Positions 12,972 through 23,756 of a stretch of DNA of 24,664 bases are shown here, in pieces. The stretch's first letter is position 1. Each line of letters opens with the position of its first letter. The position numbers and the translations under genes are program-made. The notes beneath the pieces were generated by a model. That model was not told the DNA's origin and ran no database searches. It worked only from the letters and a program-made list of their open reading frames with translations. The stretch comes from a virus, in IMG/VR virus record IMGVR_UViG_3300008219_000093, positions 1 to 24,664 of that record. One strand, 5' to 3'.

Positions 12972-13445
12972 TTATTTCCTATAATACATTCCACCTATTT
13001 GGTGAAAGCCCTTTTTGTTAAAAAGTTTCTTGGCTCTTTCAACTCCATCAAGGTTAAAAACGCCAAGAATCAAGGGTTTGTTTTGCTCTTTAGCATATTC
13101 TATTACTGCATCCATTAAAAGATGGGATGGCGGTGTTTGATCTTTTAAATTCCTATACTCAGGTAATACATAAAACCAACCATCACCTATGTATTGTTCT
13201 GCTGACCACCAATAATCATCAGGGCCTACAGCAATACTACCAATGATTGTATCGCCATCTAATACATTATACACAATCCCATTAAACAAGAAATGATTTA
13301 TGTGTGATGATGCACGACCCCATTCAATGGGTGGAGATCCTTTGCCTGAAAGAGAATGTTCTATCCAAAAATGTTCTGATAGAAAATCAGCTATACGTTT
13401 ACCATTTTCTAGTGTAGGCTCTACCTTTTCTAAGGTTAAATTCAT
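12972..13445 (-). CDS. GNAT-like N-acetyltransferase
   Basis: This 157-residue protein has a GNAT-type layout: N-terminal helices, strands GIVYNVLDGDTIIGSIAV (56-73), a strand DGWFYVLPEYR (88-98), a helix SHLLMDAVIEYAKEQ (107-121), and the C-terminal RAKKLFNKKGFHQIGGMYYRK (137-157) typical of the family's last helix and strand. The acetyl-CoA pyrophosphate loop, normally R/Q-x-x-G-x-G/A after PEYR, is degenerate here (NLKDQTPPSH). It overlaps the 605-residue gene (ATGA at 13442-13445) and lies inside the virion block, so it may modify a virion protein or host target. Activity is uncertain. Confidence 0.7.
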   Translation of the reverse strand: MNLTLEKVEPTLENGKRIADFLSEHFWIEHSLSGKGSPPIEWGRASSHINHFLFNGIVYNVLDGDTIIGSIAVGPDDYWWSAEQYIGDGWFYVLPEYRNLKDQTPPSHLLMDAVIEYAKEQNKPLILGVFNLDGVERAKKLFNKKGFHQIGGMYYRK

Positions 13446-17577: not shown

Positions 17578-18048
17578 TCATTTATCAATGGTTAAAGAAT
17601 TTAGCTTTGGCATTTTATTTATTTTTAATAAAGCTTTAAGCAAAGAATCCTTTGAATCTATTTTATTTAAAGTATTAATGCTTTTAGATACTTCTGTTAA
17701 ATTTTTTGTACCATCATAGACATCAAAAAATACTTTACTAATTGGCAAAGCAACAAAACAAAACATGTCGACTTGGCCGTTTCCATATCTTACCATTTTA
17801 TTTTGGCGAATGTTATTAGCAGTTCTTTTGCTTGTTCGCAACTCCCATCGATAATAATCACTATTTCTTCGTGTGTATATAGAATTTGTAGTTTTGACTT
17901 GAACTCTATAAAGATAGTTTTCATGATCAAGAATTAGATCAGATTTGTGCCCGTTGGGAGTAGGTATTACAGAGTCACAGTATCTAAGCAAAAATGATGC
18001 TGCTAGATATTCTCCTGCTAATGATATCCTAGAGGAGTATTCAGACAT
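17578..18048 (-). CDS. Free-standing PD-(D/E)XK endonuclease
   Basis: This 156-residue protein has an N-terminal PD-(D/E)XK core: G12-E13, D37 in GHKSDLIL (33-40), and Q50-V51-K52 in YRVQVKTT. This is the E...D...QxK form used by small resolvase-like nucleases and by the group I intron enzyme I-Ssp6803I. The C-terminal half is basic and unrecognised. It sits between the endolysin and tail genes, a common place for free-standing homing-type nucleases, but a packaging or host-DNA role is also possible. A perfect AAAGGAG (18054-18060), 5 bases before the ATG and inside the end of the lysozyme gene, makes this one of the best translation starts of the window. Confidence 0.75.
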   Translation of the reverse strand: MSEYSSRISLAGEYLAASFLLRYCDSVIPTPNGHKSDLILDHENYLYRVQVKTTNSIYTRRNSDYYRWELRTSKRTANNIRQNKMVRYGNGQVDMFCFVALPISKVFFDVYDGTKNLTEVSKSINTLNKIDSKDSLLKALLKINKMPKLNSLTIDK

Positions 18049-19202: not shown

Positions 19203-19565
19203 TTACCCCGCTAATGGATTTTTATTATCTAGTTTATTAATCTCTTTCTCTAAACTTTTTATATCTGCTTTAATAGTAGCTATATTTGTTTTTATGTTTT
19301 CAATCTTTTCGCCTTGAGACTTTAATTCAACCATAATATTTTCATCAATACTTTTATTTATATATTCAACTGATGTTTCTATCCCAACAAATCTTTCTTC
19401 TATAATATTTTGTGCATCTTTTGTTTTTCCTAAACCACCAATTTTAGCCTCAAGGTTAGCTATGCGATTAACATAAGTAGCACCTGTATATCCAAAACCT
19501 GCAAGAGTTGTAACTATTGTTGCAAGAGCAATTAGTTGTGTTGTTCTATTTTGAAACCAATCCAT
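19203..19565 (-). CDS. N-anchored coiled-coil membrane protein of the lysis cassette
   Basis: This 120-residue protein has one N-terminal membrane segment (TTQLIALATIVTTLAGFGYTGATYV, about 8-32) and then an uninterrupted coiled-coil region to residue ~113 (IGGLGKTKDAQ ... TNIATIKADIKSLEKEINKL). This is the architecture of an inner-membrane spanin (Rz-like) or of a holin accessory. No partner outer-membrane spanin is overlapped or embedded in it, though a small lipoprotein is encoded at 24051-24317. AGGA stands before the ATG. Placement just before the holin supports a lysis role; the exact class is uncertain. Confidence 0.65.
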   Translation of the reverse strand: MDWFQNRTTQLIALATIVTTLAGFGYTGATYVNRIANLEAKIGGLGKTKDAQNIIEERFVGIETSVEYINKSIDENIMVELKSQGEKIENIKTNIATIKADIKSLEKEINKLDNKNPLAG

Positions 19566-19574
19566 ATCATTTTC

Positions 19575-19967
19575 CTATAATTTATTTTCCCAATTTTCTA
19601 TTGCTTGTCTGATAGCGTCTTCTGCTAATACACTACAATGTAATTTAATAGCTGGTAAATCTAAAGCTTCAGCTATATCTTTATCTTTTATTTGGTTTGC
19701 GTTTTGTATAGTCTTACCTTTTAACATATCAACAAACATAGTGCTAGATGCAATAGCTGAGCCACACCCATAAGTTTTAAATTTAACATCTGTAATAATG
19801 TTATCTTTAATTTTAAGTTGTAACTTCATTACATCCCCACATGCAGGCGCACCCGCTAAACCTGTTGCTATATCAGGGTCTTTTGGATTAAATCTTCCTA
19901 CAGAATGTTTTGTAGGATTTTTTAAAACGTTTTCAAATCTATCAATAACTTTTTGTGAATATGCCAT
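19575..19967 (-). CDS. iscU: IscU-type iron-sulfur cluster assembly scaffold
   Basis: This 130-residue protein is very close to bacterial IscU (E. coli 128 residues), the scaffold on which IscS-derived sulfur and iron are built into a 2Fe-2S cluster. All ligands are present: C43 and D45 in GAPACGDVMKLQ (39-50), C68 in FKTYGCGSAIASS (63-75), H110 and C111 in KLHCSVLAEDAI (108-119). The N-terminus MAYSQKVIDRFEN resembles E. coli IscU, then about six extra residues precede the first Cys. The chaperone (HscA) recognition motif LPPVK reads LPAIK (104-108). The ATG follows the stop of the secreted-protein gene with no spacer (TAAATG), so translation is coupled. No IscS, HscA/B or ferredoxin gene is in the window. 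It may work with host Isc machinery as an auxiliary metabolic gene. Confidence 0.95.
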   Translation of the reverse strand: MAYSQKVIDRFENVLKNPTKHSVGRFNPKDPDIATGLAGAPACGDVMKLQLKIKDNIITDVKFKTYGCGSAIASSTMFVDMLKGKTIQNANQIKDKDIAEALDLPAIKLHCSVLAEDAIRQAIENWENKL

Positions 19968-22289
19968 TTATAAGTTTGGTTGTAATTTTCTTAAATTAGT
20001 TAAAGTTTTTATACTTTGTTCTGCTAACCCATAAAAGGTAGCATTATTATCTAATAATTTATTATTAGTATAAATGCTTTTAGGCTCATACCAAAATTCT
20101 TTTTCAGGTATGTATACTGTTCTGTAATTATCAAACCCAGGTAAAAAGCCCATAACAGCTATAATTGCATTTTCTGATCCATATTCTCCTGTTTCTTCTT
20201 GTTGAGCCTGTACTTCTTCTTTAGCAGTTTGTAAGTTTTTAGCAATTATAGTTTCTACTGTAGTATCAGAATCAGAATCTAAATCAGAACTAGAAGTAAT
20301 TGAACCTGATGAAAAATCTGTTTGATCTTGGTTTGTATTATCAGAAACATTAGCTACAACTACTTCAGTTATTACTGTTTCCGTTTCAAATGTGTTACTG
20401 CTAACAGAATTAATGGAAAGATCTGATAAAGCCATATTACTCATATCAAGAACTTGGTTTGTTTGGGCCGTAGAAGATGCAAATTGATCTGACATACTTG
20501 GAGAACTACTGGTACTAATGCCCGCATTAATTGAAGAAGAGGCCCCTGTAGAATTAGTTCCAGCTATATTACTTGAAACAGAACTATTATTATTAGAATG
20601 AATTGAACTGCCAGCAGTTATTCCACTTACACTTTTTTGAGCAGTTGTTATTGTAGAAGCTACAACTCTAAGGGCCATCTCTCTACTAATAGAACTCTTC
20701 CCTTTTGCATTCTCTTTTTCAACAATTTGAAACTCTTCTGTAAAAGCTTCTTCAAACTCTTCTGTAACTTCTTCTCTTTCAATACGTTCTTCTTCTATTT
20801 CTGCTTCAGCCATTCTTTCCTCTATAGATTCAAAAATTTCTTCTACAGCTTCTTCTTCAAATATTTCCTCTATAAATTCTTCTTCAGGTTCATCTTCCAA
20901 TACAAATTCTTCTTCCATTTCTTCAAGATGTTCTGTTTCTTCTTCAAACCATTCCTCCAAATCCTCAATTGTTTCTAATTCTATAAATGTTTCTGGTTCT
21001 CGAAAATTTTCTACAAGAAAAGTTTCTTGAAATATAAATTCTTCCAATAGTATTTCTTCTGGTATATATTGTTCTTGTTCCCATGTATCCATAGCAATAT
21101 CAATATCATCATAAGACTCTAGAGGTGTGCTGTCCCAAACAACCATCCCATCTTCTTGAAATTCAACTTCCATACCATACCACTCATCTACTTGTTCTTG
21201 CCCGAATTCTTCTAAATCTATTTGATACCACTCTTCGTCTGTCATTTCTATTCCATAATAAGGATCGTCATCAAAAGTGTCATACTGTGTCATACTTTCT
21301 TCATACCCATAATCAATATAAGTTTCATCAAAATAAGCTACTGATTCTTGTTGGCTATAACCTGGACAAAAGGGGCCATATTGAGGATCTAAGTCGCATT
21401 GAAAGTCATCATAAGCGTCCCAATAATAAGGGCATGATTCAGAATATAATTGATCAATACCACATTGTTGAGATAAATAAGCTGCTGCATAACCATCACA
21501 ATCCTCGTCATATAAAGAATTTAATGCACATTGTTGAACTAGATAAGCTTCTGCATAACCAGCGCAATTCACTGAAGTTAAAGGCGAAGTTATACAAAGC
21601 GATTGACCAACTCCTACTCCATACAAAGAACCACCATTTTCTAATAAAGTATTTGCTGCGTTACTGCTAGAGTTCCAATCATAACTTACACAAGTTCCTG
21701 AAATATTAGTAGTGCCTGTATTACACTCATCAAAAAATAAGTAAGTATAAATATCTGAAGTAGTTGGACCCTGCTCTCCAATAAGAACATCGTGTGTTTT
21801 AATATCCAATTCACCATATCTATATTCAAATGTATTATTAGGATATAACCAAACTTCTATACTATTATCTGAACCACTTCTGTTATACTCCCTCATCTTA
21901 TACCAACCAAAAATAGTATAATCATCAAAGGCTTTAGCCCTCATAGCCGAACCATTATCTTTTATTAGATCAGTCCAGAATACAAATAAAGTATTAGTAT
22001 ATTGAGGTAGGGGGTCAGGGGTGTAGTCTCCACAATAACTACCTGTTAGATTAAAGTGCAGACAGCCATTGGTAGCCATTCTAGCTTTAGTAAAATCATT
22101 ACCATAAAAAGTAAAAGTAAAACCTAAATCAAAAGCTGCTGATACTGAATCATCATTTGAACCTAGTCCTGTTGAACCTGATGAATTGGTTTGTAAATCG
22201 TATAAGTCTTGATTGGCTTCATAAATGTATTGTGCTGATAGATTACTGGTAAGTAATAAACAACATATTATTTCAAAGCAGCGATACAT
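19968..22289 (-). CDS. Large exported protein with 22-residue Cys repeats and acidic segment
   Basis: This 773-residue protein has a Sec signal peptide (RCFEIICCLLLTSNLSA, cleavage after A19). Order of parts: a beta-rich Nidogen/NIDO-like N-terminal domain (~45-200: DLGFTFTFYG, ATNGCLHFN, FWTDL, EVWLYPNNTFEYRYG). Next is a cysteine repeat at C242, C254, C264, C276, C286, C298, C308 with alternating spacing of 12 and 10 residues, each unit like C-x2-Y-x3-Y-x2-Q-Q-C-x4-L-Y. A Tyr/Asp-rich then Glu-rich acidic segment follows (~320-525), a Ser/Thr/Asn-rich linker (560-680), and a conserved-looking C-terminus (FYGLAEQSI). Exported and disulfide-rich, it may be a virion appendage or a surface protein of the infected cell. 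It overlaps the upstream gene by 22 bases and abuts iscU. Confidence 0.7.
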   Translation of the reverse strand: MYRCFEIICCLLLTSNLSAQYIYEANQDLYDLQTNSSGSTGLGSNDDSVSAAFDLGFTFTFYGNDFTKARMATNGCLHFNLTGSYCGDYTPDPLPQYTNTLFVFWTDLIKDNGSAMRAKAFDDYTIFGWYKMREYNRSGSDNSIEVWLYPNNTFEYRYGELDIKTHDVLIGEQGPTTSDIYTYLFFDECNTGTTNISGTCVSYDWNSSSNAANTLLENGGSLYGVGVGQSLCITSPLTSVNCAGYAEAYLVQQCALNSLYDEDCDGYAAAYLSQQCGIDQLYSESCPYYWDAYDDFQCDLDPQYGPFCPGYSQQESVAYFDETYIDYGYEESMTQYDTFDDDPYYGIEMTDEEWYQIDLEEFGQEQVDEWYGMEVEFQEDGMVVWDSTPLESYDDIDIAMDTWEQEQYIPEEILLEEFIFQETFLVENFREPETFIELETIEDLEEWFEEETEHLEEMEEEFVLEDEPEEEFIEEIFEEEAVEEIFESIEERMAEAEIEEERIEREEVTEEFEEAFTEEFQIVEKENAKGKSSISREMALRVVASTITTAQKSVSGITAGSSIHSNNNSSVSSNIAGTNSTGASSSINAGISTSSSPSMSDQFASSTAQTNQVLDMSNMALSDLSINSVSSNTFETETVITEVVVANVSDNTNQDQTDFSSGSITSSSDLDSDSDTTVETIIAKNLQTAKEEVQAQQEETGEYGSENAIIAVMGFLPGFDNYRTVYIPEKEFWYEPKSIYTNNKLLDNNATFYGLAEQSIKTLTNLRKLQPNL

Positions 22290-23335
22290 TCTTTTTTATG
22301 CTGGGAAGAAGAGTGCCAAGTTGATTTACAACGCTTAACTTGGTCTTTATACCAAACTTTATAGTCAGGTCTATCTGTTTTATTTTTATCCCAAGCAGCA
22401 GTAGCATCTTTACCTATCTTTCCTCTGTATGGACAAGGCGTGCCAGCTTGCTCCATAGCAACAAATACTCTTGGATCAGCGCAAAGTAGTGATATAGAAG
22501 CTACCTTCATGCCCATATCATATAGATACTTAGATAATTTTAGCCTTTCGCAGTTTTTATCTGTAACTGTTCTACCACTTGAGAAACCAAATACTTGACC
22601 TTGAAAAGCTCCAGATCTACCTACAGTACAAAGGTCTTGAGAGTAAGACATAATACTAGGCGCTATAGCACTAGCAGGCGGTGCTTCTGATTTAATGTTT
22701 TGATTAATAGTTTGTGTGCTACTAGATTCATTAATATTTCGGTTCGTATTATCTGATGTGGAATTGTTATTGTTCTGATTAACATTGTTGGTCTGTACAT
22801 TTGACTCTGATGTTGATTGATTGACATTTGTATTATTTGAAGTGTTGACATTAGTATTGTTTGAAGTGCTTGTATTATTGACATTTTGATTTACTGTAGA
22901 ATTAACTGTGGAGTTAGATGTAGATGTTGATGTATTAACATTATTATTAGTGTTGGTATTATTAGAAGTTGAAATATTGGTATTATTAGAAGTTGAAATA
23001 TTGGTATTTGTATTAGAATTTGTATTTGTTGAATTATTAATATTTGTGTTCTGATTAGTACTAACGTTTGTATTTTGATTAGTGCTAACATTTGTATTTT
23101 GATTAGTGTTAACGTTTGTATTTTGATTAGTGTTAACGTTTGTATTTGTATTTACATTAGTATTGTTATTGGTGTTTGTATTATTTGTTGTTGTATTGTT
23201 AGTCGTATCTAAACTATTTTCTTCACAATACTGAGTGCCAGCAGTACAAGTTCCTGTTTGATCGGCATAAGTAAAATTTGCAAATAATAAAAGTGTTATT
23301 AGCCATGGGGAAAATTTAAGTTTTAGTGTTTGCAT
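22268..23335 (-). CDS. Exported protein with Asn/Thr-repeat stalk and Cys-rich C-terminal domain
   Basis: This protein is about 355 residues from the ATG at 23335 (a TTG at 23341 adds two; neither has a clear ribosome site). The signal peptide ends ...LLLFANFTYA (residue 24). After a short CTAGTQYC segment, residues ~45-215 are almost only N, T, S and V in 8-residue units such as NTNQNTNV, encoded by 24-bp DNA repeats. The C-terminal ~120 residues form a domain with six cysteines (C236, C262, C285, C301, C336, C350) and the signature DKNCERLKLSKYLYDMG ... CADPRVF.AM..AGTPCP. I recall this domain from other phage hypothetical proteins but know no function for it. The architecture suggests a stalk plus a head. 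It overlaps both the thermonuclease gene (20 bases) and the next gene (22 bases). Confidence 0.68.
   Translation of the reverse strand: MQTLKLKFSPWLITLLLFANFTYADQTGTCTAGTQYCEENSLDTTNNTTTNNTNTNNNTNVNTNTNVNTNQNTNVNTNQNTNVSTNQNTNVSTNQNTNINNSTNTNSNTNTNISTSNNTNISTSNNTNTNNNVNTSTSTSNSTVNSTVNQNVNNTSTSNNTNVNTSNNTNVNQSTSESNVQTNNVNQNNNNSTSDNTNRNINESSSTQTINQNIKSEAPPASAIAPSIMSYSQDLCTVGRSGAFQGQVFGFSSGRTVTDKNCERLKLSKYLYDMGMKVASISLLCADPRVFVAMEQAGTPCPYRGKIGKDATAAWDKNKTDRPDYKVWYKDQVKRCKSTWHSSSQHKKECIAALK
22955..23002. repeat. Perfect tandem duplication, 2 x 24 bp
   Basis: Two identical 24-base units (22955-22978, 22979-23002) encode NTNISTSN-type octapeptides in the stalk of the exported protein. Confidence 0.85.
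23043..23138. repeat. Tandem repeat, 4 x 24 bp
   Basis: Four consecutive 24-base units (starts at 23043, 23067, 23091, 23115) of the form tttgtattttgattagtg.taacg, differing by a few bases, followed by a partial unit. They encode NTNQNTNV/S octapeptides. The last two units are identical, a sign of recent duplication. Confidence 0.85.
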
Positions 23336-23756
23336 TTTCAATTAGTGTATGTAGCCCTTCTTTAATCAATATATCTCTATTCTTTAAGTGCTCTAATTGA
23401 ATATCTTCTTTGCTTTGGCCCTCATACCTAACTGCCATATGGTTTGTAATCATTTGTTGATTAATATTTATTCCATCTACTATAACTGATGCCAAAACCC
23501 TACCGAATTTTCCTTTAGAGTCTTTTAATTGCGTCTGTAAAATGACGTGTTTGCCATTTGATATGGCGTCTTGTAAAAACTTAGTAGCTAACTTACCTCT
23601 AGCCTTTTCGTCTTTATTGCGAGTCCGGGACTCAGGAGTGTCTATGCCATATAAACGTACACGACACCTATGAATTATATTAAAACCGAGATCAAGCTCA
23701 GCGTCAATAGTGTCTCCGTCAACAACCCTGCTAACTTTACACCCATACTCATACAT
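23316..23756 (-). CDS. Staphylococcal nuclease-like thermonuclease
   Basis: This 146-residue SNase-fold nuclease cuts single- and double-stranded nucleic acids with calcium. The active-site set matches staphylococcal nuclease with a shift of one: R34, D39, T40 and E42 in RVRLYGIDTPE (32-42), R86 in GKFGRVLA; the early DGDTI (13-17) supplies another conserved aspartate. No signal peptide is present, so it acts in the host cytoplasm or is packaged, possibly to degrade host DNA. The start shares bases with the preceding stop (TAATG at 23754-23758), and its end overlaps the exported stalk protein. Confidence 0.88.
   Translation of the reverse strand: MYEYGCKVSRVVDGDTIDAELDLGFNIIHRCRVRLYGIDTPESRTRNKDEKARGKLATKFLQDAISNGKHVILQTQLKDSKGKFGRVLASVIVDGININQQMITNHMAVRYEGQSKEDIQLEHLKNRDILIKEGLHTLIENANTKT

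Follow-up and report, generated by a model that had tools for sequence, protein, structure and literature searches.

A 22-residue cysteine repeat of phage proteins, predicted to form a length-variable stapled stalk encoded within a conserved gene trio

The window (the whole stretch of DNA analysed, 24,664 nucleotides) is a 24.7-kb virus record that carries phage replication, endolysin and structural genes. One of its genes, gene B, encodes a protein of 773 amino acids bearing an array of regularly spaced cysteines, and is well supported, by the genes found on either side of it across viral loci, as the middle gene of a conserved A-B-C trio. The best overall explanation, considered probable, is that B is an exported stapled stalk of variable length and that it works with A and C as an envelope complex. 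This explanation builds on the sequence pattern of the array, its steps in copy number, the rules followed by its cysteines and the gene trio, each of which is described below.

Gene B and its cysteine array

Gene B is an open reading frame of the minus strand (19968..22289), the strand on which all of the features given below for B lie. Residues 1-19 (MYRCFEIICCLLLTSNLSA; 22233..22289) are a predicted signal peptide, identified from the sequence and from the hydrophobic N-termini of relatives. A strongly hydrophobic N-terminus is found in 114 of 119 B relatives, versus 18.5% of the other neighbouring ORFs. Export of B is thereby predicted, in agreement with the secreted protein proposed in the earlier note.

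The signal peptide is followed by an N-terminal head (residues 20-226; 21612..22232), predicted to be a beta sandwich by AlphaFold2 with alignment A4; pLDDT is high for the strands of the head and low for its last part. The cysteine array (Cys232-Cys308; 21366..21596) comprises four C-x9-C loops and three helical linkers with a gap of 12. Next comes a Glu-rich acidic linker (about residues 312-560; 20610..21356; boundaries approximate), recognised from the sequence and similar in composition in close relatives. The conserved C-terminal domain (residues 689-773; 19971..20225; FxxY...FY...IY...DN...QY/QP) is common to diverse array proteins. The B family shares this layout: hydrophobic N-terminus, head belonging to one of two families, array, acidic or low-complexity linker, C-terminal domain. 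The two head families are those given by iterative profile clustering; single-linkage clustering had merged all heads.

The cysteines at residues 242, 254, 264, 276, 286, 298 and 308 (21366-21566) are separated by gaps of 12, 10, 12, 10, 12 and 10 exactly, as first reported. The reported count of seven missed Cys232 (21594-21596), located 10 residues before Cys242. The array thus contains eight cysteines (Cys232-Cys308; gaps 10, 12, 10, 12, 10, 12, 10). The longest chain with 12/10 spacing was four in 20,000 shuffles of the B protein versus the eight observed, so the register is not due to chance. The motifs C-x2-Y and Y-x2-Q-Q-C are present, as described, in units 1 and 2. The third unit (CPYYWDAYDDFQC) had been called degenerate. 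This does not reflect decay: the arrays of close relatives end with a near-identical sequence, which makes this unit a conserved terminal cap. Between window B and eight-cysteine relatives, the dN/dS of the array is about 0.15-0.38, with synonymous changes exceeding non-synonymous ones. Judged by these values, the reading frame of the array is under purifying selection.

Distribution of the repeat

Six peptide patterns derived from the window array match 166 related viral stretches, and the array profile gives 246 viral matches. With a consensus profile, relatives are found on at least 579 viral contigs and at two loci (L159 and L160) among 84,980 prokaryote species genomes. Genes of phage families lie around L160, among them endolysins, a protease, an exonuclease and a helicase loader. 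The contig of L159 measures 8 kb; its genes near the array are also of phage type, and its phage nature is less clear than that of L160. An earlier genome scan with a close-family profile gave zero matches. The window array, the whole of B and a long array from a relative gave no true tblastn match in the cultured phage records (50,697) or the plasmids (72,556) searched. Within the sensitivity of pattern-based scans, the repeat is thus frequent among uncultured viruses, and in cultured viruses and cells it is rare or absent.

The gene trio and its neighbours

The product of gene A (22268..23341, minus strand) is exported and rich in Thr and Asn, and has a conserved domain containing Cys (phrog_20531; PHROG E 9.9e-13). 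Of the 99 loci with enough sequence, 93 have gene A upstream of the array gene. The Cys domain is preceded by a long Thr/Asn low-complexity stretch (TNTNxNTN) whose length varies among relatives; several of the versions from large phages have a hydrophobic C-terminal tail. Gene C (19203..19565, minus strand) encodes, according to its translation, a protein of 120 amino acids with one N-terminal TM segment, a coiled coil and a C-terminal NPLAG. In 115 of 121 testable loci, one of the three gene positions that follow the array gene downstream (+1 to +3) is occupied by a small ORF ending in NPL; among background ORFs, 10 of 1,285 have this ending. One N-terminal TM segment is found in 119 of 128 C genes. 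The NPL(A) tail is nearly invariant on this one-TM coiled-coil protein in about 120 loci; it is perhaps a binding motif.

The trio occurs in sequences whose size ranges from about 32 kb, in a pelagiphage devoid of the array, up to 316 kb, in a viral contig. The cultured pelagiphages Mosig, HTVC033P, HTVC202P, Baldr, HTVC115P and HTVC023P carry, like the window, a homologous gene A and, in most cases, an exported B with an acidic linker and an NPL-ending TM gene C. Their B differs from window B by another head and by the lack of the Cys array. The array is thus not essential to the trio; it looks like an optional stalk within a wider phage module. Gene order, together with a weak profile match between the C-terminal domains (hhalign probability 43%, E 0.00025), hints at homology between pelagiphage B and array B. 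HTVC115P also carries, near its trio, an acyltransferase gene annotated as toxin-activating.

The gene order in the window is B, NifU-like gene, C, holin-like gene, lysozyme gene. The second of these (19575-19967, minus strand; Pfam NifU_N E 4.7e-40) encodes a NifU N-terminal domain and lies between B and C, inside the trio. A PD-(D/E)XK nuclease gene (17578-18048, minus strand) is located between the lysozyme gene and a relative of genes annotated as stabilization protein. An acetyltransferase-like gene (phrog_1249; 12972-13445, minus strand) is found among the structural genes. In close relatives, as in the window, the trio has spanin-like, holin-like and endolysin genes next to it.

Two other roles can be considered for the trio. 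The trio could alter the envelope, either by superinfection exclusion or by ligand or surface binding, B being a head-on-stalk adhesin or a receptor mask. This is possible, if somewhat unlikely: the exported head-stalk layout, the two head families and the variable stalk length would suit such a role, and genes at the B position are annotated as carbohydrate-binding in one cultured phage and one fosmid phage, but no PADLOC defence model is matched and no cell-surface anchor was identified in B.

The second role is lysis, B being for example a spanin accessory that disrupts the outer membrane. It is unlikely: although the gene order of the window, the endolysins near the L160 array and the Rz-like and lipoprotein spanin-like genes recurring near close relatives all speak for it, distant large phages keep the trio, recognised lysis clusters adjoin 3 of the 50 loci with 4 kb downstream, and trio-bearing loci can have separate spanins. 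When gene C was examined as an Rz-like spanin, window C gave weak coiled-coil matches in PHROGs (including phrog_739, E 9e-4) and a longer C gave none. The proposal that the trio always lies inside a lysis cassette was dropped in view of the distant loci without adjoining recognised lysis clusters. Since the trio is kept without recognised lysis clusters in distant larger phages, the common denominator of these loci is a set of three envelope-directed proteins.

Array rules and cysteine pairing

The rules given here derive from 142 distinct arrays, 112 of which are within reading frames closed at both ends. Array length shifts by exactly 22 residues, close relatives differing by one whole unit, and the arrays of relatives contain 3 to 15 Cys loops. 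Adjacent units show up to 98% DNA identity in one locus (L177), which indicates that arrays grow by recent tandem duplication. An even number of cysteines and a loop at both ends of the array are found in 111 of the 112 closed-frame arrays, an evenness that follows partly from whole-unit duplication and on which the arrays are non-independent. The sole exception (L228) is a broken contig, in which an ambiguous base and a change of frame interrupt the array.

The first loop varies (9-11); every later loop is exactly C-x9-C (582/582). Linker lengths are 12 (529 linkers), 16 (20), 10 (19) and 8 (14); those of 16 and 8 correspond to 12 plus or minus four residues, i.e. about one helical turn. The array of L160 (L160:7383-9524) includes 28 cysteines, and most of its linkers are of 10 instead of 12, leading to a nearly uniform 10-residue Cys ladder. 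The consensus of 525 distinct units is C-[PTS]-G-Y-A-x-A-Y-x-x-Q-Q-C-x-[LIA]-[ND]-P-L-Y-[DSN]-x-x, in which C1 and C13 are invariant and Y4, A7 and Q12 near-invariant. A profile ignoring the Cys columns detected no unit devoid of a Cys; its matches were the 16-gap variants.

Only the loop is constant and the loop alone opens and closes arrays, so pairing would be simplest with a single disulfide in each C-x9-C loop. Each loop is thus probably closed by its own disulfide. In the window, the spacing of 10 and this loop rule would pair Cys232 with Cys242 (loop 1; 21564..21596), Cys254 with Cys264 (loop 2; 21498..21530), Cys276 with Cys286 (loop 3; 21432..21464) and Cys298 with Cys308 (loop 4, array end; 21366..21398).

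Ladder links are possible in stacked solenoids, and the cysteines might pair across stacked units (e.g. Cys i with i+3) instead of inside the loops. Such a pairing is quite improbable: the length of the loop is fixed whereas the linker slides by 2-4 residues, and a ladder would leave terminal cysteines unpaired in arrays that open and close with a loop. Binding of a metal (zinc or an iron-sulfur cluster) by cysteines free of disulfides is very improbable even though the array cysteines are invariant and a NifU-like gene adjoins B, as B appears exported and the cysteines of exported proteins are normally oxidised, no gene of NifU type was noticed at annotated cultured-phage trio loci, and the array cysteines have neither a conserved His nor a strictly conserved acidic ligand beside them. 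Of the "disulfide-bonded or metal-binding" array suggested in the earlier note, the first term is therefore retained, as the probable one, and the second is disfavoured.

Predicted structure and family searches

AlphaFold2 predicts a six-loop relative with a pLDDT of 96.9 and a pTM of 0.68; in this model, 12-residue helices repeat every 22 residues. The window array is predicted with a pLDDT of about 89-94, its N-terminal neighbour being the beta sandwich. Its helices are located at residues 245-256 (helix 1; 21522..21557; positions 227-238 of model m61a16ac48716), 267-278 (helix 2; 21456..21491; positions 249-260) and 289-300 (helix 3; 21390..21425; positions 271-282). Helix 3 belongs to the terminal cap unit conserved in close relatives. 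Structure prediction, which had been proposed as a check, thus yields a regular helical array with very high confidence. The stacked, disulfide-bonded solenoid that had been suggested agrees with the invariant cysteines in even number, with a constancy limited to C-x9-C and with this confident helical model, in which the array fold is predicted and the disulfides are putative.

A profile search of the unit, another of the checks proposed, places it in no characterised repeat family of the libraries searched. The statement that no named family was known also holds: no model of the array was found in Pfam, NCBIfam or PHROGs, and no match to it was found in the PDB. In Pfam, no family is found for window B at E 0.1, and none beyond chance for its relatives. 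PHROGs, NCBIfam and PADLOC give zero families for B; the array relatives also give zero in NCBIfam. A PDB sequence search gives nothing for the window array, and the profile gives one match, a neurotrophin (E 0.6). The best PDB match of the array with Foldseek has an E of 5.4 among 350,542 chains; the VIA-align comparison spanned 12 chains only. Comparison of the window model with the PDB gave common beta-sandwich arrangements only (Z < 6, over the head), which were set aside. Foldseek also retrieves A0A6J7WUF5, a protein of an uncultured Caudovirales phage (BFVD) whose predicted array matches with a rmsd of 1.3 A and 48% identity. This protein is uncharacterised and carries no function or family label. 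No description of the repeat was found in the literature. There is a fair chance that the array is a new fold, a missing PDB match falling short of proof.

Proposed mechanism

B would be carried out of the cytoplasm by the Sec pathway, and its cysteines would then oxidise. Every C-x9-C loop would close on itself through one disulfide. The 12-residue helices (C-P-G-Y-A-x-A-Y-x-x-Q-Q-C) would link the loops and stack into a rigid helical solenoid. This rod would set the distance between the N-terminal beta-sandwich head on one side and the acidic linker and conserved C-terminal domain on the other, and its length would evolve as whole 22-residue units are gained or lost. B, the exported A and the inner-membrane coiled-coil C would most likely be assembled into an envelope complex in the infected cell. 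A broader claim is put forward only tentatively: the repeat may define a virus-only class of solenoids, i.e. a new 22-residue fold with a C-x9-C disulfide in each repeat, serving as the adjustable rod of a widespread and undescribed three-protein envelope machine assembled by phages in the host.

Comparison with known repeats and significance

Repeat region 2 of CagY from Helicobacter pylori belongs to an exported envelope protein and consists of tandem alpha-helical modules with regular cysteines that probably form disulfides; its modules are gained or lost in-frame (PMC2581425). CagY is a cellular type IV secretion protein whose Lys/Glu-rich repeats include an A motif of 38-39 residues and a longer B motif (PMC2581425). 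The array of gene B is like CagY in kind only (tandem helical modules, regular cysteines, in-frame changes in copy number). It differs by its 22-residue units, its Tyr/Ala/Gln pattern, its strict C-x9-C loops and its presence in phages. CagY is absent from the matches of the unit-profile scan of the 84,980 prokaryote species genomes.

The Hcp proteins HcpB and HcpC are secreted helical solenoids made of disulfide-bridged Sel1-like repeats (PMC2581425). The Hcp repeat is a two-helix unit of 36 residues (SEL1 subfamily of TPR), whereas the B array has one 12-residue helix and a loop with a putative disulfide per 22 residues. Sel1, TPR and other Pfam helical-repeat profiles do not match the B array, nor was any sequence or fold match for it found in the PDB. 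By unit length or by profile, the B repeat is not a member of the CagY or Hcp families.

To our knowledge, few repeat proteins have each of their units pinned by a disulfide. The B repeat is short, highly regular, variable in length and apparently confined to phages, and its array could serve as a simple template in the design of stapled rods. If the model of an exported stapled stalk holds, the repeat would define a family that Pfam, NCBIfam and PHROGs lack, and would provide a clear signature by which hundreds of so far unknown phage genes could be annotated. It would also point to a conserved envelope module encoded by A, B and C.
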